From positions 1 to 64,000 of the IMG/VR virus record IMGVR_UViG_3300046048_000227: a stretch of 64,000 nucleotides of DNA; one strand, written 5' to 3'. The notes beneath the pieces were generated by a model. The model saw nothing but the letters and a program-made list of their open reading frames with translations. It was not told the DNA's origin and searched no databases. How positions within the stretch are numbered: position 1 is the first letter of the stretch; each line of letters begins with the position of its first letter. The translations under genes and the position numbers were made by a program. Of the stretch, positions 4,948 through 48,579 are shown piece by piece. This DNA comes from a virus.

Positions 4948-5190
4948 ATGAAAAAGTTTACCGTATTGACTAACAATGATCTTGAACGAGCACGCACTAC
5001 GAGCATAAATCGCAAGAGCGTGCGGATAGAGCACAAGGGCACGAAGTTATACGTGCCTGTGCTACCATTGCCTAGTGGTAGTAAGCCAGGACATGTAGGC
5101 TGGAGAACACGAGCCTTAGCAGAGCAAGTGTTTGATACCACTGCTAGTATCAATAAAACCCGCATACTACGAGTGGCGGGAATGCTTTAA
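4948..5190 (+). CDS. Small basic protein
   Basis: 80 residues, unknown, Arg/Lys-rich. Good AGGAGG upstream. It is the last gene before the palindrome at 5194, so it may end a transcription unit. Confidence 0.75.
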   Translation: MKKFTVLTNNDLERARTTSINRKSVRIEHKGTKLYVPVLPLPSGSKPGHVGWRTRALAEQVFDTTASINKTRILRVAGML

Positions 5191-5193
5191 GCG

Positions 5194-5209
5194 AGTCTAA
5201 ACTTAGACT
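5194..5209. promoter_or_regulatory. Palindromic operator copy 2
   Basis: AGTCTAAACTTAGACT, one central mismatch from the perfect copy at 1195. It lies 4 bases after the stop of the preceding gene and just ahead of a hairpin (GGTGCGT/ACGCACC, 5216-5235) and the gene at 5256. Confidence 0.7.
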
Positions 5210-5255
5210 AGGTAGGGTGCGTGTAACAACGCACCTTACCCATAGGAGATATAAC

Positions 5256-5537
5256 ATGTACTACACATTAGTATATTCATTTTGCAGGAAGGTTAGTACG
5301 TTGTACGTCATCGACGGAGAACTTACGTTTGATCAAGCCATAGACAAGTTAGATGAGATATTCTTAGCTTATACTAAGTGTGCTTGCTGTGGTGAGAGGT
5401 GGAAGTCTTGGCGAGTAAATAATCCTACCGAAGTAGTCAACATGACACATGTGCTACCCGCTAGCACTGTGGTCTATTACAGTGAGATAGGCAGGTTTGT
5501 TTTTGCGCGTCTTGTGCGCAAGGAGAGTGAAGAATGA
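5256..5537 (+). CDS. Unknown protein with CxCC motif
   Basis: 93 residues. The ATG at 5256 follows AGGAG at normal spacing; a longer frame from 5217 runs through a hairpin and lacks a binding site. Residues 43-46 read CACC, a possible metal or redox site. The stop overlaps the next start. Confidence 0.75.
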   Translation: MYYTLVYSFCRKVSTLYVIDGELTFDQAIDKLDEIFLAYTKCACCGERWKSWRVNNPTEVVNMTHVLPASTVVYYSEIGRFVFARLVRKESEE

Positions 5538-5722
5538 ACGAGTACATGATAGTACTACGACCCAACGGCAAACTAACACATATCCCAGGTGCACGAACAG
5601 CAACGTTTGTTGATCGTGTACTTGGGGGTGATTGGAAGGCTTGCCTATTAACACAAGCAGAGAGCGTAGAGCAAGCGAAGGTACGATTTGAGCAGGTGCA
5701 CAAGGAGCAAGATCATGGATGA
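5534..5722 (+). CDS. Small unknown protein
   Basis: 62 residues, mixed alpha/beta composition, preceded by AAGGAG. It overlaps both neighbours, and its last codons contain the ribosome binding site of the radical SAM gene, so the two are probably translated together. Confidence 0.7.
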   Translation: MNEYMIVLRPNGKLTHIPGARTATFVDRVLGGDWKACLLTQAESVEQAKVRFEQVHKEQDHG

Positions 5723-6938
5723 GATCATACTATGCCAAGTGAGTACGGAGTTGATACAGCCAATCAATACAACGCTGGAATACTATCAGCGCGCGTATGG
5801 CTATATGGACGGGTATCATATACCGTCCAAGCACTTCATGGAGATACCGCTATGGATTGCAGTGGTGGCAGGTAAGCTACATAAGTATACACCAAGATTA
5901 CACATCGTACAGAACGTAGAAGATACAGTGAAGTACCTGAACAAGCAAGACTCAGACGTACCAGTACTGTTTAGTGTGCTTGATGTGAACAAGCATATCA
6001 TTCGTAGCATAGTGGATGAGGTAGACAGTCGCAGAATAATCTTAGGCGGCTATGTAGACCCTGAGTACTTCTTGTTCTACGACAACGTAACGTGGTTAGA
6101 TAGTGTCGATGAACTGTCAGGTGAGTTCCAGTACTACGATCATGCCGCGGCACCAGATTACACACTATTCAAGTGGATGTGGACAGTGCCACGATTGACC
6201 TTGAGCAAAGGATGCCTGCATAGCTGTAAGTTTTGCAGTGTAGAGCGGGTGCTAACTAGCATGTCAACGCTGGAGATAAACCAGCAAGTGACAAACATGA
6301 GAGGACTCAACTTCAAGCTTATGTACATAGACGATAAGACGTTTGGGCAGTCGTCTAATTGGAGATTGCTACGTGCAATTTACGAGGAGATAATTGCCTA
6401 TAACCCTGAGTTTATGGGGTTCATTGTACAAACAACTGTACCCTACGCAGTGAAGTACATACGTGAGTGGGTGGAAGACTACCATGTACTGCACGTAGAA
6501 GTGGGCGTCGAAGTACCGAGCGACAAGTTTCTGGAAAAGATGAACAAGCCATACCGTATGAATAAGCTCAACAAATTGATAAATATAGTACGTGAGCTTG
6601 TACACATGGACGAGTACAAAGTAGGGTTCATTCCTAACCTGATCTTTGGTATGCCAGACGACGATTATGTATCCACGTACCGTTGGGTGCGTAGTTGTCA
6701 GGACATTATCAGCTTTGTTAATCCATACGTGCTAAGTTATTACTCAAATGCTAAAGGGGATATAATAGGCGATGAGCAAGAACGCGGTGCACAAGACAGC
6801 AACGAGAACACCACAGATAGAACGTGGCTGTCACCTATGGAGCAGAAATTAACCGAGGTGTTCATGTACAAAATACTCAACCACACATTACTCAATCTGT
6901 CATTACGAGCAGACGAGGTAGGCGTAAAAGTAGTGTAG
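5715..6938 (+). CDS. Radical SAM enzyme
   Basis: 407 residues. Cys167, Cys171 and Cys174 form the CxxxCxxC motif (within KGCLHSCKFC) that in the radical SAM family binds a 4Fe-4S cluster and cleaves S-adenosylmethionine. About 160 residues precede the motif and look like a Rossmann-type domain (IILGGYVDPEYF), as in cobalamin-binding radical SAM proteins, but I do not see the DxHxxG cobalamin motif. The ATG at 5715 is chosen for AAGGAG eight bases upstream. Substrate unknown; modification of tRNA, of a nucleobase or of a small molecule are all possible. It is by far the largest gene in the small-gene run. Confidence 0.88.
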   Translation: MDEIILCQVSTELIQPINTTLEYYQRAYGYMDGYHIPSKHFMEIPLWIAVVAGKLHKYTPRLHIVQNVEDTVKYLNKQDSDVPVLFSVLDVNKHIIRSIVDEVDSRRIILGGYVDPEYFLFYDNVTWLDSVDELSGEFQYYDHAAAPDYTLFKWMWTVPRLTLSKGCLHSCKFCSVERVLTSMSTLEINQQVTNMRGLNFKLMYIDDKTFGQSSNWRLLRAIYEEIIAYNPEFMGFIVQTTVPYAVKYIREWVEDYHVLHVEVGVEVPSDKFLEKMNKPYRMNKLNKLINIVRELVHMDEYKVGFIPNLIFGMPDDDYVSTYRWVRSCQDIISFVNPYVLSYYSNAKGDIIGDEQERGAQDSNENTTDRTWLSPMEQKLTEVFMYKILNHTLLNLSLRADEVGVKVV

Positions 6939-9218: not shown

Positions 9219-9855
9219 GTGGCTAAAGCTAGGGAGTGTGCAAAACTTGCTAGATGTGTACTCCTTAGCATTTCCTGAAGAGATTGAAGCTGGCACTGAC
9301 TGGTACGGTAAAGCTAATGAGTGGGCACGTACCTTAGCTAAGCAGGTAGGCATTAACGTTAACACTATTATCGACATAGTAGCTAGCCTATCACCTAACA
9401 ACGCATGGGAGCGCAACAAGTCTGATACCCTGCTACTGATTAACTCATGGCAAGCAGGTATAACTGATCCCAAAGAGATTAAGTGTGCGACGTTTAACAA
9501 CCAAGTCCAGAAAGCACTAGATATACTGTCTGGAAAATACACAAAACTCATCGGCGGGAAAGTAGAGAACTTTGCACACAACATACGACGACCAGAAACA
9601 GTAGCTGATGAGGTAGTTACCGTAGATCGGTGGGCATTTCGTGCTTGGATATGGAACAGTAGGCAGTCAGCTACCCTTAGCCCTGCTATGATGAAGAGAA
9701 TAGCGAAGGATTACCAGATCGCGGCTAAGATGGTAGGTAAAACACCACGAGATTTCCAAGCAATAGTATGGCTAGTAGTGCGCCGAGCAGGGAACAACGG
9801 CAAAGCTAAAGTGTGCGGCTTAGATAGACTGAAGGCACAACTAAGATTATTTTAG
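9199..9855 (+). CDS. HhH-GPD-like protein (putative)
   Basis: 218 residues. Two segments stand out: ASLSPNNAWERNK (about 63-75) and TVDRWAFRAW (about 142-151). They recall a family found in phages and actinobacteria that I remember as related to helix-hairpin-helix DNA glycosylases, where a catalytic Asp follows a Val. The fold assignment is a memory-based inference, not a demonstrated match. The gene overlaps the zinc-ribbon gene upstream by 20 bases. A role in base excision or recognition of modified bases is conceivable. Confidence 0.6.
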   Translation: MSDYSGKWLKLGSVQNLLDVYSLAFPEEIEAGTDWYGKANEWARTLAKQVGINVNTIIDIVASLSPNNAWERNKSDTLLLINSWQAGITDPKEIKCATFNNQVQKALDILSGKYTKLIGGKVENFAHNIRRPETVADEVVTVDRWAFRAWIWNSRQSATLSPAMMKRIAKDYQIAAKMVGKTPRDFQAIVWLVVRRAGNNGKAKVCGLDRLKAQLRLF

Positions 9856-9865
9856 GAGGCATGAC

Positions 9866-10042
9866 ATGGTGTACGAAGTAAATATCTCAATGGCGTATAA
9901 CGCAGACAGTCCAGAAGAAGCGGCTCAACTTTATCTGAACAACATTAGAATGCACACCGACTGGTACATTAAAGTCAGGTGTGTGGATACCGACAAAGAG
10001 TTCACAGTAGATTCTGCTGATTGGGAAGTAGAGGAGGAGTGA
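9866..10042 (+). CDS. Small acidic protein
   Basis: 58 residues, acidic C-terminus. The ATG at 9866 is used because an ATG five bases earlier gives only a six-residue frame. AGGAGG upstream. Unknown. Confidence 0.65.
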   Translation: MVYEVNISMAYNADSPEEAAQLYLNNIRMHTDWYIKVRCVDTDKEFTVDSADWEVEEE

Positions 10043-11102: not shown

Positions 11103-11315
11103 ATGATTAGATACTTGTCAAAAATGGTGTACACCCAAAAACGAATGTGTATCTGTGACAATTGCCGAGCTATCCAATACTTTGCTAGAGACAAGGAGAC
11201 TTGTTTTATGTGTGACGGTGAAGTACTTGAATACAAATTAGTTAGAACAGACAAAGGAGATGCTAATGAAAGTGAAAAATCTGGGCAACAAAGTGTCTGT
11301 GATCGTGACCAATAA
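11103..11315 (+). CDS. Small Cys-rich zinc-binding protein
   Basis: 70 residues. CICDNC and CFMC form a likely zinc ribbon (residues 16-37). AAGGAG precedes the ATG at 11103, 19 bases after the promoter's -10 box. Its end overlaps the next gene in another frame. Confidence 0.72.
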   Translation: MIRYLSKMVYTQKRMCICDNCRAIQYFARDKETCFMCDGEVLEYKLVRTDKGDANESEKSGQQSVCDRDQ

Positions 11316-11571
11316 GGAGTGGGCTGATACCATTGCTGACTTCGGCACTGAGAAGGCAGACGGAGCAACAGTTAGTGAAGGGAGTGGGCACTACAAGAGC
11401 TTATCAGCTAAGACCATTCAAGAAAATATCTGGGAAGTTACGATCTTCACTAAGAATGTACTACAATTCCAGATAGATGTACTCGAACTGTTGCAGGAAT
11501 ACTTGCAAGACACCAAAGAAGAGTCAGTACTAGTACATACTGGCGGACAAGCAAAGTTATACTACCTATAA
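11266..11571 (+). CDS. Unknown phage protein
   Basis: 101 residues. The ATG at 11266 rather than 11260 is used because AAAGGAG would otherwise touch the start codon. Mixed alpha/beta composition; overlaps the previous gene by 50 bases. Confidence 0.68.
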   Translation: MKVKNLGNKVSVIVTNKEWADTIADFGTEKADGATVSEGSGHYKSLSAKTIQENIWEVTIFTKNVLQFQIDVLELLQEYLQDTKEESVLVHTGGQAKLYYL

Positions 11572-20625: not shown

Positions 20626-21122
20626 TAGTAATAACAGTGCCTTAAAAGTAATCACAGACTTGCGAGGCATTTTTGAACAGAAGATGTAGTACCTTAACAA
20701 CTGAAACATCGAGTACTAACGGTGTATGTGCACATCTGGGGAGACGCTGGTTGCCAAGCAACAAAGCACCGCGGAGAGAAGCAAGCGGAGGACTTGCATT
20801 AGTACTATCGAGGTGTCTATGGCGGAACTGGTAGACGCACCTAGCTGTGACCTAGGTTATTGTGGGTTCAAATCCCACTAGGCACCCTTGTGTATTGCGA
20901 AGGACTAGAAGCCTTGGTACCTAGATAAAAAACAACAGTGGCTTCCTGATGAGTAAGCGTGGTGCACTTACCAAGTGTGTCCTGACAAGTGAGACACTAG
21001 ATTAAAACCTGTGCACTAGGTTTTAGTCCAACGTCACGCAATACTTTGAGGACTGCACTATGGCATTATCCTAGGAGGTAATAGACTGGGAGCGGGTGCA
21101 ACAGTTAGGCAGTCCTCACCCC
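20626..21122 (+). ncRNA. Large structured RNA of unknown family around tRNA-His
   Basis: No gene fits here, but strong helices do: AGATGT/ACATCT (20682/20732), GTTGC-caa-GCAAC (20750-20762), GCAAG/CTTGC (20781/20793), GTATTGCG/CGCAATAC (20892-20899/21037-21044) closing several hairpins including AAAACCT/AGGTTTT (21004-21024), and TGAGGACTGC/GCAGTCCTCA (21047-21056/21109-21118). A strong promoter precedes it. Large ornate RNAs such as GOLLD and ROOL occur near phage tRNAs, but I cannot assign this one. It may be more than one RNA. Confidence 0.6.
20812..20886 (+). tRNA. tRNA-His(GTG)
   Basis: Acceptor GTGTCTA/TAGGCAC plus an encoded G at -1 opposite C73, the hallmark of bacterial tRNA-His. 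Anticodon arm CCTAG-CTGTGAC-CTAGG; T-arm GTGGG-TTCAAAT-CCCAC. The D-arm is of the Leu-like GGCGGAACTGGTAGACG type. Confidence 0.85.
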
Positions 21123-21799: not shown

Positions 21800-21843
21800 C
21801 CTTGCTTGTGAGGACTCTCCTGTCCTGTTTGGGAGCGCAAGCA

Positions 21844-21870
21844 CCCCCCACAGGTGATATCAGTGGGGGG
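21844..21870 (+). terminator. GC-rich hairpin inside the tRNA cluster
   Basis: CCCCCCAC (21844-21851) pairs with GTGGGGGG (21863-21870). No T-run follows. It may be a processing or attenuating hairpin rather than a terminator. Confidence 0.45.
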
Positions 21871-21882
21871 AGAATATATACC

Positions 21883-21960
21883 GAGGCGGAGACCATGACA
21901 TGGTGTTCTTACAAATACCGAATTTGTACTTGGACACCATTACAAGTAGGTCTCCGCCTC
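21883..21960 (+). ncRNA. Rod-like three-helix hairpin RNA
   Basis: Nested perfect helices: GAGGCGGAGACC/GGTCTCCGCCTC (12 bp, 21883-21894/21949-21960), ATGGTGT/ACACCAT (21900-21906/21934-21940) and TACAAAT/ATTTGTA (21910-21916/21922-21928) with a 5-base loop. It lies between tRNA-Tyr and tRNA-Trp, has tRNA-like length, but no D- or T-arm. Unknown RNA. Confidence 0.6.
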
Positions 21961-21966
21961 AATCTC

Positions 21967-26698: not shown

Positions 26699-26971
26699 AT
26701 GGCAAAGAAAATGATATTAAGAAGAATGAACAACTCCCTACCTGAGTTAGTAAGCATGGTAAGAGAGAGCAAGCTAGAGAATAGAGTGTTCTTATGTAGG
26801 AAAGGGCCAGCTATCTTCACTAGTATGTTGTACTTTGCTAAGGCTGAAGACTTACTGAAAGGGGAAGAACCAAACATTCCTGGAATTGGTATGCTATTTT
26901 TTGTAACAGAAAAAGTCAGGCTCCCAGTAGGAGATGCAGATGAAGTAAACCTTATTTTATTAAAAGATTAG
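26699..26971 (+). CDS. Unknown phage protein
   Basis: 90 residues, basic N-terminus, otherwise mixed. GGAG upstream. Its last codons and TAG stop (26969-26971) fall inside the first helix (P1) of the RNase P RNA. Confidence 0.73.
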   Translation: MAKKMILRRMNNSLPELVSMVRESKLENRVFLCRKGPAIFTSMLYFAKAEDLLKGEEPNIPGIGMLFFVTEKVRLPVGDADEVNLILLKD

Positions 26972-26985
26972 TGTAGTCTTGCGCT

Positions 26986-27001
26986 GGTCTAAGTTTAGAC
27001 T
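26986..27001. promoter_or_regulatory. Palindromic element copy 4, also RNase P helix P3
   Basis: GGTCTAAGTTTAGACT is the fourth copy of the AGTCTAAATTTAGACT family. Here it sits where helix P3 of RNase P RNA must be, so its dyad symmetry may serve RNA structure, protein binding, or both. Confidence 0.6.
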
Positions 27002-27042
27002 AGAGGAAGCTCAGGACTGCTCCGCTTAATGTAGGAGGATAT

Positions 27043-27240
27043 ATGACAGGTGAGTGTACCCACGAACACACAGCAACCTTTACTTATAATGACTGGGTAC
27101 ACCCAGAAACTAGAGAGGAAGTATGTCTAGACTGTCAGAAATCTGTTAGCACTACAGAGGCAGCGACACCAATAGACTCAGTGGGTGAGCGGCACGACAA
27201 GTCTGGTAGGTGGCACCCGCAAGGGACGGCACAGCCGTAG
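27043..27240 (+). CDS. Possible zinc-binding protein nested in the RNase P RNA gene
   Basis: 65 residues with a good AGGAGG upstream. The N-terminal half reads like a real protein: CTHEH (5-9) and VCLDCQ (28-33) could form a zinc site. The C-terminal half is encoded by sequence that also has to form conserved parts of RNase P RNA. Either the gene has been fitted into the RNA's specificity domain or the frame is fortuitous. Confidence 0.5.
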   Translation: MTGECTHEHTATFTYNDWVHPETREEVCLDCQKSVSTTEAATPIDSVGERHDKSGRWHPQGTAQP

Positions 27241-27287
27241 ATAGATGCAAGACCACGACAGAATCCTGGCTATCGCACTAATCTTTA

Positions 27288-27316
27288 TTGACTTATCTTA
27301 CCATGTGTGGTATAAT
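27288..27316 (+). promoter_or_regulatory. Strong sigma-70 promoter for a tRNA block
   Basis: TTGACT (27288-27293), 17 bases ending TGTGG, TATAAT (27311-27316), four bases after the RNase P RNA end and nine before tRNA-Cys. Confidence 0.85.
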
Positions 27317-27476: not shown

Positions 27477-27550
27477 GCTCCCGTAGCTCAGAGGACTAGA
27501 GCAGTTCTCTTCTAAAGAAAAGGTCACAGGTTCGAGTCCTGTCGGGAGTG
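27477..27550 (+). tRNA. tRNA-Arg(TCT)
   Basis: Acceptor GCTCCCG/CGGGAGT (one G-U); D-stem GCTC/GAGC; anticodon loop CTTCTAA; T-arm ACAGG-TTCGAGT-CCTGT. Confidence 0.85.
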
Positions 27551-27553
27551 CCT

Positions 27554-30688: not shown

Positions 30689-30698
30689 CACAATAACT

Positions 30699-30986
30699 AT
30701 GACTATACTAGACACATTCCCATTCACAAGACTTGAGTACATGCAGAGCGTAAGTCCTGTTGTCAACCATATATATGAAACAACAGCACCAACAAGCACA
30801 ATTGTATCTCTCTTAGTAGACCCCGTTGGGAAAGACTACTTAGTTAGAAAGTTTAAAGACATAGTTGGAGCTAAAGAAGTACCGCTACTTCGAGATAAAA
30901 ATACTGGTGGGTTGTATCCAGTAACGGCTGTTAGACAATTAAAAGACGGTAGGGTACAGGCTTTTATCCTACTAACCCAAAAATAG
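30699..30986 (+). CDS. Unknown phage protein
   Basis: 95 residues, beta-rich. There is no clear ribosome binding site between tRNA-Gly and the ATG, so the start is uncertain. A promoter begins right after its stop. Confidence 0.62.
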   Translation: MTILDTFPFTRLEYMQSVSPVVNHIYETTAPTSTIVSLLVDPVGKDYLVRKFKDIVGAKEVPLLRDKNTGGLYPVTAVRQLKDGRVQAFILLTQK

Positions 30987-30987
30987 C

Positions 30988-31016
30988 TTGACAATAAAGG
31001 TAAAGTACTTTACAAT
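30988..31016 (+). promoter_or_regulatory. Sigma-70 promoter for tRNA-Ser(TGA) and the structured RNA
   Basis: TTGACA (30988-30993), 17 bases, TACAAT (31011-31016). It precedes tRNA-Ser(TGA) by 20 bases. Confidence 0.76.
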
Positions 31017-31035
31017 AATAGTTGATAATAAATTC

Positions 31036-31122
31036 GGAAGGTTGACAGAATCTGGTATTGTGACGGCTTTGAATACCGATGCCTACCGCAAGATAGTGGG
31101 AGTTCGAATCTCTCACCTTCCG
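31036..31122 (+). tRNA. tRNA-Ser(TGA)
   Basis: Acceptor GGAAGGT/ACCTTCC; anticodon loop TTTGAAT; long variable arm; T-arm GGGAG-TTCGAAT-CTCTC. The anticodon stem has a C-A next to the loop. Confidence 0.8.
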
Positions 31123-31643
31123 CCAGATGCGATCAGGATATAGCCTCGCCTGATAAATGGTGCATGAATCACGGCTCCCGCTAACCAACGAGCGGAAAAA
31201 ATTTGTGCAGCACCACACCTGCTACTGTGCCTAATGGTAGTTTTCCTCAGAGCACTAGGGGTGCAGCCAGCGTAAGCTGGAAGGCTTGTTCGAGACAAGC
31301 TGAGGAAACTGCAACTCATGTGGGGCGTCTCTCCCCAGAGAACCATGAGAAAAAGGTGTGACCCTGAGACCACACTTGGCAAAGGGAGACTGTCAGGAGA
31401 GACTGACACCCAAAGGTTCCTCCCTGTTGAAAGAGTCCCTGATGACTCTGACTGTTTGGGGCACAAGACTAAGACCCCTGCGAAAGCTGAACTTTCTAAA
31501 TAGGGAGGTCTACGCGGAAGTGTACAATGATGTACCATCTAGACTTAGCGGTTGACGATGAGGGAGCGAAACCCTACTTCTGCTCTAGCCTTACCTACCA
31601 TGTGTAGGAAAAGATCGTGGATCGTAGTAATGCGATCCATGCA
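31123..31643 (+). ncRNA. Large ornate structured RNA (GOLLD/ROOL-like candidate)
   Basis: 520 bases between two Ser tRNAs with no convincing gene but many strong helices: TGCGATC/GATCGTA (31128/31620, possibly closing), GTTTTCCTCAG/CTGAGGAAAC (31240/31300) enclosing CCAGC-GTAA-GCTGG and GCTTGT/ACAAGC, then GTCAG-gagaga-CTGAC, AGAGT/ACTCT, CCTAC/GTAGG and GGATCG/CGATCC. GTAA and GCGAAA loops are typical of folded RNAs. A promoter lies upstream at 30988. Location beside phage tRNAs fits the giant phage RNAs GOLLD and ROOL, but I cannot match a consensus from memory. Confidence 0.65.
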
Positions 31644-31731
31644 GGAAGGTTGGCAGAGAGGAAATGTGACCGCCTGGAAAGCGGTAGCCTACGGTAATAC
31701 CGTAGCGAAGGTTCGATCCCTTCACCTTCCG
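31644..31731 (+). tRNA. tRNA-Ser(GGA)
   Basis: Acceptor GGAAGGT/ACCTTCC; anticodon arm ACCGC-CTGGAAA-GCGGT; long variable arm with CTACGGT/ACCGTAG; T-arm GAAGG-TTCGATC-CCTTC. Confidence 0.88.
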
Positions 31732-31749
31732 CCTAATAAGGAGTAGAGA

Positions 31750-32916
31750 ATGACTTTAGTATTCGGCAAGCACGATGAGAGCACATTAGAGCAGATGGAA
31801 CTAGCAACTTCAGATGAGTCAGTAGTAGCGTCTGTGCTATGTGCTGATGGGCACCTAGGGTACTCAGTACCTATCGGCGGAGTAATAGCCTACGATGGTA
31901 TGATCAATCCTGCTGGCGTTGGTTACGACATAGCTTGTGGCAACATGGCTGTGCGCCTACAAAATCAGGACGGTTTATCTGATCTTGTCGTGCACAATAT
32001 AGCAGAAATTATGGACACCATTGTTGATGAGATTGCCTTTGGGGTAGGGAAAGAAAATAAATACCCAGTAGACCATGACTTATTCAACTCTTCTGCTTGG
32101 CATATTGACGCAGTAAGCCCACTAAAAGAAACAGCCCATAAACAGCTAGGTACTGTAGGTTCAGGCAATCACTTTGTAGATATATTTATTGATGACGATG
32201 GAAGTATCTGGATAGGTGTTCACTTTGGTTCACGAGGGCTAGGGCATAAAATAGCTACCCACTATGTAAAAGAAGCTGGAGGTAAGCAGGGAGCACTAGC
32301 AGTACCAGCCCTACTTGATGAAAATTCTTACGCAGGAGAAGAGTATATAGCTGCTATGAACTTAGCTGGTAACTATGCTTATGCTGGTCGTGAATGGGTA
32401 GTCAACAAAGTTCTCGATATCATAGGTGCTGAAGCTGCCCACACAGTACACAATAACCACAACTTTGCGTGGAAAGAAAAACACTTCGGAGAACATTTAT
32501 GGGTAGTGCGTAAAGGCTCCACTCCAGCATTTCCAGGTCAGTACAGTTTTATTGGTGGCTCCATGGGTGATGTGTCTGTAATTGTAAAAGGCAGAGAAAC
32601 ACCCCTGAGCGAAAGAGCTATGTACTCTACAGTACACGGTGCTGGCAGAGTAATGTCCCGAACTGAGGCGGCTGGTAAAACTAAATATAACAAAACAACT
32701 AAGCAAAGAGAGCGAGTATCAGACGGTGCTATTTCTAAAGAAGACATGCTAAGTAGATTAAAAAACTTTGGTGTTGAGCTACGAGGAGGAGGACTAGATG
32801 AAGCACCTCAAGCATACCGCGATTTAGCTACAGTACTTCAGCACCAAAAAAATACAATAGACATAGTAACTGTACTGAACCCTATAGGCGTAGCTATGGC
32901 AGGGCAAGGTGTGTAA
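31750..32916 (+). CDS. rtcB: RtcB RNA ligase
   Basis: 388 residues, full length for RtcB. ADGHLGYSVPIGG (32-44), VGYDIACG with Cys63 (metal ligand), GSGNHF, and HGAGR with His296 (guanylylation site) are the family's active-site motifs. RtcB joins RNA 3'-phosphate or 2',3'-cyclic phosphate ends to 5'-OH ends using GTP and Mn2+. In a phage rich in tRNAs it could repair host- or toxin-cleaved tRNAs. AAGGAG precedes the ATG. It directly follows tRNA-Ser(GGA) and leads a short operon with 32916 and 33170. Confidence 0.93.
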   Translation: MTLVFGKHDESTLEQMELATSDESVVASVLCADGHLGYSVPIGGVIAYDGMINPAGVGYDIACGNMAVRLQNQDGLSDLVVHNIAEIMDTIVDEIAFGVGKENKYPVDHDLFNSSAWHIDAVSPLKETAHKQLGTVGSGNHFVDIFIDDDGSIWIGVHFGSRGLGHKIATHYVKEAGGKQGALAVPALLDENSYAGEEYIAAMNLAGNYAYAGREWVVNKVLDIIGAEAAHTVHNNHNFAWKEKHFGEHLWVVRKGSTPAFPGQYSFIGGSMGDVSVIVKGRETPLSERAMYSTVHGAGRVMSRTEAAGKTKYNKTTKQRERVSDGAISKEDMLSRLKNFGVELRGGGLDEAPQAYRDLATVLQHQKNTIDIVTVLNPIGVAMAGQGV

Positions 32917-33448: not shown

Positions 33449-33452
33449 CTAT

Positions 33453-33531
33453 GCGGGTGTAGTCGGCGCGGTTTCCTAAACCGTTACCCGTAGAGGAACT
33501 GAGAAGGTGGGTTCGACCCCCACCACCCGCT
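33453..33531 (+). tRNA. tRNA-Arg(CCT), aberrant D-arm
   Basis: Acceptor GCGGGTG/CACCCGC and T-arm GTGGG-TTCGACC-CCCAC are perfect. The best anticodon arm is GCGGT-TTCCTAA-ACCGT, but only six bases separate it from position 9, so no D-arm fits, and 22 bases follow before the T-arm. Possibly rearranged or intron-bearing. Confidence 0.55.
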
Positions 33532-33547
33532 CTTGAGAGGAGGTACT

Positions 33548-33883
33548 ATGACAAGCTATACACAAAAACAGTTAGACCGTCTACCATTATGGGCACAATA
33601 CGAGATTGCGCGATTGAAGAGTAATGAAGAGTACTATAAAAAACACTTTAACAAGACCGTTACTGGCACTTCTGGCATAGCAGTGTACACTATTGCAGAC
33701 GACTATGCTGAACCTGCTGGCTATCTACCTGGATTTAGTTATGTAAAAATGAACGGTATTAGGATAAAATTATCAGAAAAGATAGGAGCACATAAGGGTT
33801 TAATTGAGGTTAGTTGTTCAGATCAGCTAGTATTTCTTACAGGATCAGCTAACCAAGCGTATATAACGCACGAAAAATTTTAG
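33548..33883 (+). CDS. Unknown phage protein
   Basis: 111 residues. The opening (LDRLPLWAQYEIARLKSNEE) is a pattern I have seen in small phage proteins of unknown role. GAGGAGG precedes the ATG at 33548. Confidence 0.75.
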   Translation: MTSYTQKQLDRLPLWAQYEIARLKSNEEYYKKHFNKTVTGTSGIAVYTIADDYAEPAGYLPGFSYVKMNGIRIKLSEKIGAHKGLIEVSCSDQLVFLTGSANQAYITHEKF

Positions 33884-33890
33884 TTAGCCT

Positions 33891-41138: not shown

Positions 41139-42035
41139 ATGGCAACCAGATTCTATTTACCTTTAAGCGGAACAGCGGCAGTATCTCCATCTTATAGCAA
41201 TCAAGCTTGGGGAGATACAACTATTGCTGCGCGACATGCGGCGGTAACTACTAGAATTAACTCTACTATGACCGACGTAGAGTTTCCAGATGATGGGGAC
41301 GATACCGATAAGGATATTCTGGTTAGACAACACGTATCTGACCCAATAGCCGCTCAAACTATTTCTGCACAAACTATAAAATTCCAAATACGGGGAGCGG
41401 AACCGTTTTCTGTAAATAATTTGTACACCTCTATTGCCATATATGTTGTTTCAAATGATGGCTCTACTGTTCGTGGTGTTATTTTATCTCTATCTAGAGA
41501 CACCAGTGAGCTTGCTTTATACTTAGAAAACAGGCAATTCTCAGCAACATCCTCTCAAGTAGTAGCACAATCTGGTGATCGCATAATAATTGAAACAGGT
41601 TTTGGTGGTAATCCCAATAATAACCAAGACCATGCTGGTACTCTCAGCTACGGTGATGATAGCACTACTGACCTAGGAGAAAACAATACTGATACTGCCG
41701 CTTACAATCCTTGGGTTGAGTTTGCTAACACTCTGGACTTTGTTGGTACTGCTACATTTGCCTTTCCTGAAGTGGATGGATTTGTGACGATAAACTGGAA
41801 TAAGACTTCTCTTCTGCTAAATAGCATTAACTGGGACGTGAACAGTACTGGGTCTCTCAAGATATTGATGGAAAATGCTGGCACTCCAATTATCGACCTG
41901 GACATTACGTGCCCTAATACCGACAGCGAGGCTATACCTGGAACTTATAATCTAGAAAACTATAACGACCCCGATAAAGGGGAACGGTTGAGATGGCCTA
42001 CTGACCTTGTCTTCCTCGTGAGTATGCAATCATGA
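41139..42035 (+). CDS. Tail-operon beta-rich protein
   Basis: 298 residues, Thr/Ser/Asn-rich, beta-rich, with no recognised catalytic motif. Begins with a FYLPLSGTAAVSP segment common in phage appendage proteins from environmental genomes, as far as I recall. Overlaps the next gene by four bases. Confidence 0.7.
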   Translation: MATRFYLPLSGTAAVSPSYSNQAWGDTTIAARHAAVTTRINSTMTDVEFPDDGDDTDKDILVRQHVSDPIAAQTISAQTIKFQIRGAEPFSVNNLYTSIAIYVVSNDGSTVRGVILSLSRDTSELALYLENRQFSATSSQVVAQSGDRIIIETGFGGNPNNNQDHAGTLSYGDDSTTDLGENNTDTAAYNPWVEFANTLDFVGTATFAFPEVDGFVTINWNKTSLLLNSINWDVNSTGSLKILMENAGTPIIDLDITCPNTDSEAIPGTYNLENYNDPDKGERLRWPTDLVFLVSMQS

Positions 42036-44347
42036 CAATAGAGAACGGATACTTTATATACAGTGAGAACGACACTACTCACGATTTAACTGTCACAGTC
42101 TCAAGTAATAGCGACAGGATATTGGATATTCAGATCATTGTATACGGTGGGGATTATTTATCTAGTGTTGTGCTAGACCCAGGTGGAAATGACGAGGTTG
42201 CACTAGAGTTGCAATCTGGTAATGATGGTGTGGCTTTCTACGGGTCTACCTACTATATAATTAATGCAACTCCTGGAGCAGGTCAAACGCTTAGAGTAAT
42301 AACATCTTCTTCCTGTGATGTGCTTATCTCTGTGCTAGATTTGTCCAACATGGACACAACCGCTATTGAAAATGGCTATGCTGTTGGAACTGGCACTACC
42401 AATGCTCCAACAGTATCATTTTCTACTACCGAAGATGGCGGTCATGTTCATAGTGCGTTTATATCTCAAGCAAATTCCGGTGCAGGAGTAGGAACGTGGA
42501 GCGGGGTAACTGGGCAAACAACCTTAGATGCAACCGACCAAGGACTCGACCAAACAGGTAGTGCCTATGCTACGCAAACCAGTGCGGGTACTATCACTAT
42601 GAACTACTCAACAACACAAACTGATAACTGGTTGTGTATCGGCACAGCATGGGCAGTTTCATCTGGGCCGGCAGTAGTAACAGGAACAGCTACTTTATCT
42701 GGTACAGGTACATTAACTGCTGCTGGAGATCGAGTACCTATTGTATCTACTGGTTCCGCTACACTAACAGGAACAGGTACGTTAACTGCTTCTGGCGATA
42801 GAGTAATAGTTATTTACACTGGCTCTGTTACAATGAGTGGTATTGGAGCATTAAACGCCACAGCAATAGCCATAAACACAGGATCAGCTACTTTAGCTGG
42901 TACTGGCACATTAGCTGGTATAGGTATAGCATTAAGCTTTGGTACAGCTACGCTTACTGGAACAGGTACATTAACAGCGGCTGGTGAAGCAATATCTGCT
43001 GTAATTACTGGCTCCGTAACCATGGCTGGAACTGGCACTCTAGCTAGCGCAGGCGTGCAGCTAACTACCGAAGTAGTCATTGGCGAAAACAATAATGGTT
43101 ATATCTCTGCTTTGCCTGGAGAGTATGGTAGAGCTATAAGTAGTATGGCAGACACACAAGATGTAATGCTAACCTACTCTCTACAATTCTCAGATACTGG
43201 TGGTTCTTTCTTGCATAGAACGTTCTTAAGGGCTTCTGGAGACTGGGCAGCGGCAACATTGCCTACTACTGGTGTAGAATTTGAGATCGACAACGTTAAC
43301 GGTACCGTAGATATCTATAATATAACTACTGGTTCTAGATCAGCGTCACAAGCCAACGGTACCTACACAAATGATACTGTTCTTAAACAAGTTAAGATAG
43401 AAGTAGCTGGTACTACTGCTAGAATAAAAATTTGGAATGACGGTAGCGCAGAACCTGGAACTTGGGCTGCTACATGGTCTTCAGCACCACAAAACTCTGG
43501 TACTTTACAGCTTGGGCTATGGTCTACCACAGACTGGCACAAAATAACTATAGACGATGTACTAGCCACGTATCCAGCAGTTACTGGTTCAGTAACCATG
43601 GCCGGTACTGGTGCCTTGACTGCCTCAGCTATAGGAATTTCAAGCAGCACAGCTACGTTAGCTGGACAAGGAACATTGACAGCAACAGCGATAGCTGTAA
43701 GTAATGGTACTGTCACTTTATCTGGTACAGGCACGATTATAGCCGCTGGTTCTGTAATTGGTATCTTGCTAGGAACTGCTACACTGTCAGGAACTGGCAC
43801 GCTAACTGGTACTGGTATTGCTTTAAGCTCTGGAACCGTAACATTAACAGGTACTGGTACTCTTACAGCAGCAGGAGATATAGCTACTGCCATAGAAACA
43901 GGTTCAGCTACATTGTCTGGTACTGGTGTATTAACTGGTATTGGTATAGCCATAAGCAATGGTACAATTACTATGTCTGGAGCGGGTACTTTAACAGCTT
44001 CAGGAATAGGTATTGCTAATGGCACAGCTACGCTAACAGGTACAGGTACTTTAACTGCTTACGGAACTGTTCCTGCTGGAATAGAGACTGGTAGTGCTAC
44101 TCTTGTAGGTACTGGGGCACTAACAGGAATAGGTATTGCTATCTCCTTTGGTACAGCTACCTTAACTGGTGCAGGTACTTTAACAACAAGCAGCTTGGCT
44201 ATAACTACAGGAGCAAGCACATTAACAGGAGTAGGCACACTTACAGCAACAGGGCAGGGAGCTTATCCGTTCCCATTCTTTGATGATTTTACTGGCGTAA
44301 CAGGCGATCCACTAGACAGCACTAAGTGGACACAGGCGGTAACATAA
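42032..44347 (+). CDS. Repeat-rich tail protein with one lectin-like module
   Basis: 771 residues. An N-terminal domain (~1-210) is followed by about seven degenerate ~20-residue repeats of the form GTATLSGTGTLTA (residues ~215-340), one non-repetitive ~165-residue module (LamG-like in pattern: FLHRTFLRASGDW, KIWNDGSAEPGTW), then about eleven more repeats. It ends in FDDFTGVTGDPLDSTKW. The repeats likely form a beta-solenoid or extended fibre. The next gene carries the same modules. Confidence 0.75.
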   Translation: MTIENGYFIYSENDTTHDLTVTVSSNSDRILDIQIIVYGGDYLSSVVLDPGGNDEVALELQSGNDGVAFYGSTYYIINATPGAGQTLRVITSSSCDVLISVLDLSNMDTTAIENGYAVGTGTTNAPTVSFSTTEDGGHVHSAFISQANSGAGVGTWSGVTGQTTLDATDQGLDQTGSAYATQTSAGTITMNYSTTQTDNWLCIGTAWAVSSGPAVVTGTATLSGTGTLTAAGDRVPIVSTGSATLTGTGTLTASGDRVIVIYTGSVTMSGIGALNATAIAINTGSATLAGTGTLAGIGIALSFGTATLTGTGTLTAAGEAISAVITGSVTMAGTGTLASAGVQLTTEVVIGENNNGYISALPGEYGRAISSMADTQDVMLTYSLQFSDTGGSFLHRTFLRASGDWAAATLPTTGVEFEIDNVNGTVDIYNITTGSRSASQANGTYTNDTVLKQVKIEVAGTTARIKIWNDGSAEPGTWAATWSSAPQNSGTLQLGLWSTTDWHKITIDDVLATYPAVTGSVTMAGTGALTASAIGISSSTATLAGQGTLTATAIAVSNGTVTLSGTGTIIAAGSVIGILLGTATLSGTGTLTGTGIALSSGTVTLTGTGTLTAAGDIATAIETGSATLSGTGVLTGIGIAISNGTITMSGAGTLTASGIGIANGTATLTGTGTLTAYGTVPAGIETGSATLVGTGALTGIGIAISFGTATLTGAGTLTTSSLAITTGASTLTGVGTLTATGQGAYPFPFFDDFTGVTGDPLDSTKWTQAVT

Positions 44348-47300
44348 TGGCACAATTTGGTCGTCCAGATGCAGACATTACCACAACTAACTGGGGAATA
44401 ACTCCTTTATTTTCAAAAATAAATGAAGTAAGTCCTTCAGAGCTTGATTACATCACTGCGGTAGCTAACGCAACAGCAACCGCAGAAGTTGGCTTACCTG
44501 ATCTGGACGACCCTACTTCTTCTAGCTTACATACAATTAGATTTAGAGCAAGAGCAGAGAAAACTAATAAGGCGGCACTGTTAACAACATCTTTGGTGCA
44601 AGGTACTACCATAATAGGATCGTTAGTACTGGACGCAGAAGTAGACATGACAACAAGCTTTGCGTCGTACTCCTTTACACTAACTAGCGGAGAAGCTGAC
44701 AACATAACAGACTATACAGACTTGCGCTTACGTTTTGAACAAACAACTGCTACAGCAGGTAACTTTGTGGAAGTTTCTTGGGCTGAGTTTGAGATACCAG
44801 ATGCCATTGTTATTCATACAGGCACAGTAACTATGTCTGGTACTGGTGCGTTATCTTCAGGCAGCACAGTAATACCAGGAACTACAAAGTCTGGATCAAC
44901 TACGTTAGTGGGTACTGGTGCACTGTCTGCTGCTGGCATACGAATAGGCACAGAAGCAGCAATTAATGCAAATGCGGGAAGGTTATTTGTCCTTACTGAT
45001 AGCAATTATGTACGTGCTAGAGCCTACGTAGAGACTACCCACAGTGACTACGAAGTAAACCACACTCTACAATTCTCTGATATTACTGGTGCTTACATAT
45101 ATAGGGTTTACGTGCGTGCTTCAGACGATTGGGCAGACAGTGATAAACCAACTACTGCTGTTGAGTTTGCTATAGACCCTGTAAACGGCACTATTAATAT
45201 ATATAACATTACAAGTGGTTCTCGTGGAGCATCACAAGACAGTGATACTTTTACAGCAAACACTAACTTAAAGAATTTACGCATCCAATGTGACGGTACT
45301 ACAGTACGGGCTAAAATTTGGGAAGGCTCAGAACCTGCAACTTGGAATGTATCTTGGTCTTCAGCACCAACTAACAACGGTGTTGTACAAATAGGTCTTT
45401 GGTCTACTACAGGACAGCACTATGTAGACTTAGATGATTTTGACGTTGACGATGTACAAGGAGCAGTGTCTGGTTCTGTCACAATGTCTGGCACAGGAAC
45501 ATTATCTGCTTCAGGAATAGCTATAAGTAGGGGAACTGCTACATTAACAGGCACTGGTGCGCTAACTACTGTTGGTTTGGCTATAAGCAATGGCACAGCT
45601 ACACTCTCTGGCACAGGCACATTAACTGCCGCAGGAGATAAGGTTGCAGTTATCTATACTGGCACAGTTACCATGTCTGGTTCTGGCGTGCTAACTAGTG
45701 TTGGTATAGCAATTAGTTCAGGCACTGTAACATTCTCAGGAACAGGCGCATTAACTGGTATAGGTATAGGAATTGCCTCATCAACAGCTACTTTGGCTGG
45801 TATAGGAACGCTGGCTAGCACAAGTCTGGCGATCTCAAACGGTACCGCAACTCTTAGTGGAGTAGGTACACTGTCTGCTGCTGGAGATGTAGCGTCTGTC
45901 ACTTCCTACGGCACTGTAACTATGTCAGGCACTGGTGCATTAAGTGCTTCAGCTATAGCTACCTCTTTTGGAACAGCCACACTAAGCGGGGCAGGAACGC
46001 TAGCTGCAATTGGTTTGGCTATTTCCTTGGGCACAGCTACACTTTCAGGCGTAGGTACATTGTCTGCACAAGGCACAGTAGGCGGAGTAGTAGAAGGCAC
46101 TGTAACTATGACAGGGACAGGAGCACTTTCTGCTTCAGCAATTGCTATCAGCAACGGAACTGCTACATTAGCTGGTATTGGCGCATTAGACGCCATAGGC
46201 ATAGCTATAGCTAACGGCACAGCTACGCTATCAGGTGCTGGTGCTTTAACTGCCTTTGCTACAACGTTTGCAGTAGGAAAAGCAACGCTATCAGGTACTG
46301 GAGCGTTATCTGCTACAGCTATAGCGATCTCCACAGGCACAGCTACACTAGTAGGAACTGGAACTCTATCCGCTAGTGGTACAGTAGGTGGAGTAATCTC
46401 TGGTACTGTTACCTTAGCTGGCACTGGAACTATAACAGCTTCAGCTATAGCTATAAGTTCAGGAACTGCTACCCTAAGTGGTACAGGTACGCTAACTGCT
46501 ACTGGAGATAGGGTAGCTGCTATACATACAGGCACTGTTACTATGTCGGGCACTGGTGCTCTGTCTACATTTGGACTCCAGCTAACTAACGAGATTATAA
46601 TTGACGGGAACAGGGCAAAGATCGCCGCTCTTGCTGGTCACTACGGAACACTGATCACTAAGATGGATGATCAAGAACAGGACTACGTAACTACGTATTT
46701 CCTACAATTCTCCGATACTGACGGTGCCTACGTTCACAGGCTATTTGTACGTGCCTCTGCTGATTGGGCAGCAAGTGACCGACCAACAACAGGTATTGAG
46801 TTTGAATTTGACAACACAGACGGTTCAATCACTATATATAATATTGTAGCTGGTGTTCGCTCTGCTTCTCAAGACACAGGCACATTCACAAATAACACTA
46901 ACCTGAAACGTGTTAAGATAGAGAATGACGGCACAACAGTTAGGGCTAAGATATGGGATGATGGCTCCGGCGAACCTGGAACATGGGATGTATCATGGTC
47001 TTCCGCTCCACAGAACGCAGGAGTAACACAAGCTGGTCTATGGTGCACAACTGGTTGGCACTCTATCCACCTAGACGACTTTAACGTATCTTACTTAGCA
47101 ATTACTGGCTCTGTTACTATGTCAGGGACTGGTACATTAACTGCCTCTGCTAGCACAGACGCTTACGCAACAGCTACATTAGCTGGAGTAGGTACACTAA
47201 ACGCAATAGGAATAGCTATTAGTAGTGGAACTGCTACACTAAGTGGCACTGGTACAATTACTGCTTCTTCTATAGCGATCTCTAACGGCACAGCCGCACT

Positions 47301-48380
47301 AACAGGTCTTGGTACCATAACAGCTTACGGTACTGTTGGTGGTATAGTTACTGGTTCAGCTACTTTAGCTGGTACGGGCGCACTAACAGCTACAGCAATT
47401 TCTATAACTAATGGAACCGCTACCATAACTGGTCAAGGAACTTTAACAGCCACAGGTGATGTAGTAGAAGTAGTTGTATACGGCACAGTAACAATGTCTG
47501 GGGCTGGAACACTAACTGCTACAAGCATAGCTATTTCCTTGGGCACAGCTACACTAAGCGGTGTAGGTATCCTTACAGCATATGGTACTGTTGGTGGGAT
47601 TGTTTCTGGTACCGTAACATTATCAGGAAATGGTGCGCTAACAGCTATAGCTATAGCTATCTCCACAGGTACAGCTACTATAGCAGGTACTGGCACATTA
47701 ACTGCACACGCCAACATAGATGCAGTAGCTAGTGCTACCCTAACAGGTGCTGGTAGTCTAACAGCACATGCCAACATAGATGCCCTAGGAAAAGCAACTT
47801 TGTCTGGTATTGGTGCTATATCTTGTTACGGAGAGATAGCTGGACAAGCGTGGGGTAGGGCCATACTGTCTGGAACAGGAAATATCACTGCTTCTGCTAA
47901 CATAGACGCAGTAGCTAGTGCCACACTTTCAGGTACTGGTACTTTGTCTGCCTCTGCTATAGCTATAAGCAGCGGAACAACCACACTAACTGGTAACGGT
48001 GCTTTAACGGCGACTGCAATAGCTATTTCCAGCAGCACAGCCACGTTATCAGGTGTTGGTACACTTACTGCTAGTGGTACAAACTTCTCCATACTGTACG
48101 GTACTACTACATTCATAGGAACTGGATTACTTACTGCTGTTGGCATAGCAATAAGCAGTAGTTCAGCAATATTAACTGGTACTGGTACACTTACTGCCTC
48201 TGGTATAGCTCTGTCCTATGGTACTGCTACACTTGTTGGTGCTGGCGATCTAACAACTTCTAGCATAGCTATATCCTACGGCACTGCTGTACTAACAGGA
48301 TTAGGGACTATTACAGCACACGCCACACTAAAAATGTGGGGTACTGCTACACTTTACGGTATTGGTAATCTGTATGTAAC
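42673..48380 (+). repeat. Degenerate ~60-bp coding repeats in two tail genes
   Basis: Blocks at about 42673-43060, 43580-44262, 44818-44945, 45466-46575 and 47102-48380 encode dozens of imperfect copies of GT(A/V)T(L/M)SGTGTLTA-x-GIAIS. They are interrupted by three copies of one lectin-like module (about 43060-43580, 44945-45466, 46575-47102). Units differ at the DNA level, so this is an old, selected array rather than a fresh expansion. Confidence 0.85.
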
Positions 48381-48579
48381 CATTACAGAATTTATGTCAA
48401 TACCTATCTACGCAGACGCCATAGTAAGCAACTTAATTAATAGATCAGCTAGGTTAAATTCCTTTATTGATGCTGACGCTGAAATGTCTGATGTAATTAA
48501 CGTAGATAACGTTAAGGTTAACGATACGATTGTAGTAGATGCAGAGATCATGGAAGAAGACAAAGACATTTACTTCTAA
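44347..48579 (+). CDS. Giant repeat-rich tail fibre protein
   Basis: 1410 residues, the largest gene here. An N-terminal domain (~1-155) starting MAQFGRPDADITTTNW is followed by long runs of GTATLSGTGTLTA-type repeats split by two lectin-like modules related to that in the 42032 product, and a short acidic C-terminal domain (~1345-1410). The ATG at 44347 overlaps the previous stop (TAATG); an upstream in-frame codon at 44326 lies inside the previous gene. Likely a long flexible or solenoid host-contact fibre. Confidence 0.8.
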   Translation: MAQFGRPDADITTTNWGITPLFSKINEVSPSELDYITAVANATATAEVGLPDLDDPTSSSLHTIRFRARAEKTNKAALLTTSLVQGTTIIGSLVLDAEVDMTTSFASYSFTLTSGEADNITDYTDLRLRFEQTTATAGNFVEVSWAEFEIPDAIVIHTGTVTMSGTGALSSGSTVIPGTTKSGSTTLVGTGALSAAGIRIGTEAAINANAGRLFVLTDSNYVRARAYVETTHSDYEVNHTLQFSDITGAYIYRVYVRASDDWADSDKPTTAVEFAIDPVNGTINIYNITSGSRGASQDSDTFTANTNLKNLRIQCDGTTVRAKIWEGSEPATWNVSWSSAPTNNGVVQIGLWSTTGQHYVDLDDFDVDDVQGAVSGSVTMSGTGTLSASGIAISRGTATLTGTGALTTVGLAISNGTATLSGTGTLTAAGDKVAVIYTGTVTMSGSGVLTSVGIAISSGTVTFSGTGALTGIGIGIASSTATLAGIGTLASTSLAISNGTATLSGVGTLSAAGDVASVTSYGTVTMSGTGALSASAIATSFGTATLSGAGTLAAIGLAISLGTATLSGVGTLSAQGTVGGVVEGTVTMTGTGALSASAIAISNGTATLAGIGALDAIGIAIANGTATLSGAGALTAFATTFAVGKATLSGTGALSATAIAISTGTATLVGTGTLSASGTVGGVISGTVTLAGTGTITASAIAISSGTATLSGTGTLTATGDRVAAIHTGTVTMSGTGALSTFGLQLTNEIIIDGNRAKIAALAGHYGTLITKMDDQEQDYVTTYFLQFSDTDGAYVHRLFVRASADWAASDRPTTGIEFEFDNTDGSITIYNIVAGVRSASQDTGTFTNNTNLKRVKIENDGTTVRAKIWDDGSGEPGTWDVSWSSAPQNAGVTQAGLWCTTGWHSIHLDDFNVSYLAITGSVTMSGTGTLTASASTDAYATATLAGVGTLNAIGIAISSGTATLSGTGTITASSIAISNGTAALTGLGTITAYGTVGGIVTGSATLAGTGALTATAISITNGTATITGQGTLTATGDVVEVVVYGTVTMSGAGTLTATSIAISLGTATLSGVGILTAYGTVGGIVSGTVTLSGNGALTAIAIAISTGTATIAGTGTLTAHANIDAVASATLTGAGSLTAHANIDALGKATLSGIGAISCYGEIAGQAWGRAILSGTGNITASANIDAVASATLSGTGTLSASAIAISSGTTTLTGNGALTATAIAISSSTATLSGVGTLTASGTNFSILYGTTTFIGTGLLTAVGIAISSSSAILTGTGTLTASGIALSYGTATLVGAGDLTTSSIAISYGTAVLTGLGTITAHATLKMWGTATLYGIGNLYVTITEFMSIPIYADAIVSNLINRSARLNSFIDADAEMSDVINVDNVKVNDTIVVDAEIMEEDKDIYF

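Follow-up and report, generated by a model that had tools for sequence, protein, structure and literature searches.

The locus analyzed here raises the question of what is encoded in a spacer of about half a kilobase that lies between two tRNA-Ser genes of a bacterial virus. The stretch that we studied (hereafter the window) consists of the first 64 kb of the 101,694-base record IMGVR_UViG_3300046048_000227. A total of 34 tRNA/tmRNA genes are found in this window, and a dense array of tRNAs together with a tmRNA extends from 19.9 to 35.6 kb. The placement between two Ser tRNAs described in the initial annotation was confirmed: tRNA-Ser(UGA) occupies positions 31036-31125 (+; cmscan, 42.3 bits) and tRNA-Ser(GGA) positions 31644-31733 (+; cmscan, 53.7 bits). 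The CCA end of tRNA-Ser(UGA) can be read directly from the sequence at 31123-31125. The spacer proper therefore spans positions 31126-31643 (518 nt) and fills the gap between both tRNA genes exactly. The next gene on the same strand encodes an RtcB RNA ligase (31750-32916, +; Pfam PF01139, E = 7e-66). The GC-content of the spacer is 0.51 relative to 0.43 for the whole window, rising from about 0.38-0.40 before the spacer to 0.50-0.53 inside it. Elsewhere in the window, we observed a tRNA with a CTA anticodon (27477-27552; Pyl according to ARAGORN), which is likely an amber suppressor, and two ORFs (42032-44347 and 44326-48579, i.e., window positions 42032-48579) whose large tail-like products contain numerous short repeats, GTATLTGTGTLTA among them.

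The spacer is non-coding. All three plus-strand frames are broken by stop codons and none of the ORFs that we tested (141 aa on the minus strand; 61 and 65 aa on the plus strand) presented a Pfam match, in agreement with the earlier view that the region holds no credible gene. The 141-aa ORF of the minus strand covers most of the spacer.

We then analyzed the predicted fold of the 518-nt plus-strand sequence. Its minimum free energy is -184 kcal/mol, as compared to -156 ± 6.3 kcal/mol for 100 dinucleotide shuffles (z = -4.4; none of the 100 shuffles was as stable), and the minus strand reaches a z-score of only -1.9. As a control, we tiled the window with 123 segments of 520 nt, which yielded a mean z-score of -1.05 (sd 1.5). 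The tile covering the RNA ranked fourth of 123 (z = -4.8; -4.1 for the RNA itself in that scan), and the tiles ranked above it include another noncoding stretch. Stability in excess of chance is thus found mainly on one strand of the spacer. Two other inter-tRNA spacers, at 20888-21122 and 21802-21966, are also highly structured (z of about -4 to -6), the latter folding almost equally well on both strands. Because other spacers of the same phage are equally structured, structure alone does not single out positions 31126-31643. Away from the tRNAs, a GC-rich non-coding stretch of about 800 nt (window ~1240-2035; z = -4.2 on the plus strand and -0.5 on the minus strand) yielded no convincing match to Rfam.

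More than 20 helices are predicted in the 518-nt sequence, most of those of at least 4 bp having a mean pair probability of 0.9-1.0, and they are arranged in several multi-branched domains followed by a 3′ module. The packed helices and multi-branch layout reported initially were thus recovered. The 5′ domain (31132-31209) is composed of a hairpin at 31132-31154 (p = 0.49) and a hairpin at 31161-31209 with an inner stem at 31178-31195. Domain II (31214-31360) is closed by the 7-bp stem CACACCU/AGGUGUG (p = 0.98) and carries several branches, among them UUUCCUCA/UGAGGAAA, which encloses three hairpins. Two hairpins (31362-31386 and 31391-31408) separate it from domain III (31413-31592), whose closing stem AAGGU/GCCUU encloses two arms: a 10-bp stem at 31419-31508 and an 8-bp stem at 31514-31583, each bearing three hairpins. 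The "tetraloop-like turns" of the initial annotation were borne out in part: GUAA loops are present, but many loops are 5-8 nt long. A candidate kissing contact (31326-31402) between the loops CGUCUCU (31326-31332) and GAGAGA (31397-31402), with five Watson-Crick pairs, proved no better than chance among so many loops (p = 0.26).

The size, position and style of the element had been likened to those of ROOL and GOLLD, large phage RNAs that are found near tRNA islands and assemble into RNA-only cages (PMC12286853). We searched 4227 Rfam families across positions 30950-31760 (811 bases; cmscan, E ≤ 10) and recovered the two tRNAs along with matches far below gathering scores. ROOL (RF03087) and GOLLD (RF02032) did not match anywhere in the 101.7-kb record, in a search run without a ROOL or GOLLD positive control. 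The resemblance in size, tRNA-island location and multi-branched fold therefore stands, but membership in either family, or in any other Rfam family at E ≤ 10, does not. ROOL is about 0.6 kb long, with an elaborate fold, and resides in phages near tRNA islands (PMC12286853); its homo-oligomeric nanocage has a hypothetical counterpart at most in the 518-nt RNA. Similarly, GOLLD is a large phage RNA located in or beside tRNA arrays (PMC12286853), like the tRNA-Ser-flanked element studied here. However, GOLLD RNAs are in many cases longer than 800 nt and have a universally conserved 3′ region in common, whereas only about 55 of the 518 nt are found elsewhere in our case. The HDV-like theta ribozymes of gut phages are small RNAs that also lie beside phage tRNAs (PMC10879173), and a CTA-anticodon tRNA is present in both settings. 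In contrast to these, our element presents no Rfam ribozyme match and its module, viewed in outline against the theta consensus, has two simple hairpins.

A class A RNase P RNA was detected at window positions 26965-27288 (+; RF00010, E = 4.8e-15, 51.3 bits), with much of its specificity region missing or unaligned. Its score lies below the gathering score of 100 and it was therefore missed by the standard scan; it was located through a 56-nt match at window 26982-27037 to G003, a related phage (locus L142) whose tRNA array is partly syntenic and which also has a tmRNA. A homologue is found in G003 at about 9575-9920. The phage of the window thus appears to encode an RNase P RNA, for which no published precedent was evident at the level of titles and abstracts. 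A 65-aa CxxC-containing ORF (27043-27240) overlaps the RNA in the window and a related ORF overlaps the copy in G003, such that this RNA and a protein may share one sequence. The program that found no match for the spacer did recover this strongly diverged RNA. The spacer at 31126-31643 was also considered as an RNase P RNA, and discarded since the Rfam scan gave no such match. G003 further contains a structured non-coding region of about 1 kb (4988-6056) with a tRNA inside it (5576-5650); it matched only tRNAs in Rfam and resembles large RNAs in which tRNAs are embedded.

The promoter that had been noted upstream was confirmed as a near-consensus sigma-70 sequence, TTGACA-17-TACAAT (30988-31016, +; 11/12 consensus positions; predicted start at ~31023). 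It is one of six plus-strand sites with at least 11/12 matches in the tRNA array, where 0.17 are expected from shuffled sequences; all six have a 17-nt spacing, and no such site was found on the minus strand of the array. No terminator-like site was found on the plus strand between the two tRNA-Ser genes. The simplest expectation is therefore a single transcript in which the ends of the RNA are set by tRNA processing.

We searched extensively for homologues. The 460-nt body of the RNA (31126-31585) has no homologue in any sequence searched. Blastn of 520 nt against phages and plasmids returned only chance matches, and the exact 16-mer CTGAGGAAACTGCAAC occurred at 20 loci in viral contigs, with further similarity at none of them. 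A scan for RNA relatives with back-translated pseudo-ORFs was equally negative, and nhmmer found no copy of the RNA across 80 loci encoding RtcB relatives. DNA polymerase yielded no relatives when used as a route to related phages, but the major capsid protein yielded 19 (identity of up to 78% for full-length alignments and 89% for a fragment). Finally, structure models of domains II and III, each built from one sequence and thus of limited reach, recovered only the window itself over 568 kb of collected loci and matched nothing in 32 virus records. One contig that contains the 3′ module (L157) scored 8.4 bits (E = 4.3) against the body models at an AAGGCU/AGCCUU stem, which is suggestive only.

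In contrast to the body, the 3′ module (31586-31640, +) is common to five other virus contigs: G003, L155, L161, L162 and L157. In the window it reads UAGCCUUA, the hairpin CCUAC/CAUGU/GUAGG, AAAAGAUC and a variable hairpin; its consensus is UAGCCUUA, a 5-bp stem with loop CAUGW, mAAAGAUC and a variable hairpin. The copies were identified through a match in G003 and then with a relaxed pattern. This match (32 nt, 94% identity) was the sole significant match to the spacer in the records of most of the 19 capsid relatives, and the only two substitutions in it affect the same base pair, turning C-G into U-A. The large RNA is missing from the syntenic position in G003; instead, the 32 nt and the hairpin that follows form the entire spacer between two other tRNAs. 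L155 (9173-9203, -), L161 (5953-5983, +) and L162 (768-798, +) form one related group in which the module lies directly 3′ of a gene with an Acb2/Tad1 hairpin domain (anti-CBASS type), possibly as one cassette. In L157, the module ends a stretch of some 400 nt that contains no long ORF (11112-11541), the only other case of the module following a long noncoding stretch, and one whose fold is at chance level (z = -1.1).

The first stem of the module occurs as CCUAC/GUAGG, UCUAC/GUAGA and CGUAC/GUACG. At two of the five pairs both partners vary, and pairing is retained in every case, although this involves only four distinct sequences and the same score was reached by 30 of 500 shuffles. The second hairpin is kept in all copies with unrelated sequences. 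Bit scores are 52-55 for the true copies and 20 for the next candidate. A search of 84,980 prokaryote species with the module pattern gave six matches, all with an incompletely paired stem, and the module model R1 found nothing in the Blautia class (291 genomes). The conservation of the module fits an RNA hairpin; a dyad that a protein recognises in the DNA is a less probable alternative. Covariation, which had been suggested as a check on the whole element, could thus be assessed in the module alone, as the body is without homologues. The earlier suggestion of a new class may hold, but homologues with compensatory change exist only for the 3′ ~55 nt.

Several explanations can account for these observations. 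The main rival to a functional 518-nt RNA, unlikely in our judgment yet a serious one, is that only the 3′ ~55 nt are functional, as a portable module of transcript ends or leaders that stabilises 3′ ends, signals processing or controls transcription, the body being an unrelated or fast-drifting structured spacer. Indeed, the module is found alone between tRNAs in G003, after the Acb2 gene in the L155/L161/L162 group and after other noncoding DNA in L157, and the body has no homologue to speak for it. Against this, the body presents strand-biased excess stability and high pair probabilities, and the L157 copy likewise closes a long noncoding stretch. Since the data separate this explanation poorly from that of a large functional RNA, we hold the latter at even confidence only. 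The spacer could also act as structured punctuation of the tRNA operon, insulating or protecting the tRNA precursor before being degraded after processing. We consider this improbable: several inter-tRNA spacers do fold well (those at 20888-21122 and 21802-21966, and 6370-6596 in G003), but 518 nt of multi-branched structure far exceed what insulation needs, and other long spacers (30690-31035 and 33450-33890) contain ORFs and are no more stable than expected.

A ROOL or GOLLD RNA that has diverged beyond the reach of the Rfam models would share the size range, tRNA-island setting and complexity observed here (PMC12286853). Neither the permissive 811-base scan nor the whole-record searches with RF03087 and RF02032 supports this, although they had no positive control, and an RNase P RNA with unaligned regions was still found at E = 5e-15; such an origin seems to us quite improbable. 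Least credible of all, and very improbable, is that the spacer encodes a catalytic RNA, such as an intron or ribozyme, or else a protein. The multi-domain fold would suit the former and the 141-aa minus-strand ORF the latter, but intron and ribozyme models were all without a match at E ≤ 10, and the absence of Pfam matches, the stop-broken plus frames and the greater stability of the plus strand argue against a gene.

The explanation that we favor, with confidence that is evenly balanced, is that positions 31126-31643 encode a genuine phage RNA, non-coding, stable and about 0.5 kb long, that is tRNA-processed and multi-domain, and whose role would most likely be structural. It is probably a large non-coding RNA similar to ROOL and GOLLD in size and setting, but of a new family with one full-length example. 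The promoter at 30988 would transcribe it together with tRNA-Ser(UGA) and tRNA-Ser(GGA). Its 5′ end would arise from 3′ maturation of tRNA-Ser(UGA) and its 3′ end from RNase P cleavage at the 5′ end of tRNA-Ser(GGA), so that processing of the flanking tRNAs would free one discrete RNA. This RNA would form a particle of several domains, with the portable 3′ hairpin module, which phages would attach to other transcripts as well, at its end. Every function that we propose is drawn by analogy with ROOL and GOLLD: the most likely role would be that of a compact scaffold or homo-oligomer made along with the phage tRNAs. The module might serve as a docking, oligomerisation or end-protecting element, and since it stands alone elsewhere, it need not share the function of the body. 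More speculatively, and we regard this as doubtful, the RNA might represent a third class of phage tRNA-island RNAs, unrelated in sequence to ROOL and GOLLD, that forms its own particle by means of a conserved 3′ module, reused on other transcripts, whose CAUG loop is self-complementary.

What purpose the RNA-only cages of ROOL and GOLLD serve is a known puzzle. An unrelated RNA in this niche would suggest repeated acquisition by phages, and would point to the setting in a processed tRNA operon as the clue. Because of its small size, the portable 3′ module can be searched for and mutated, and thereby offers an experimental handle.
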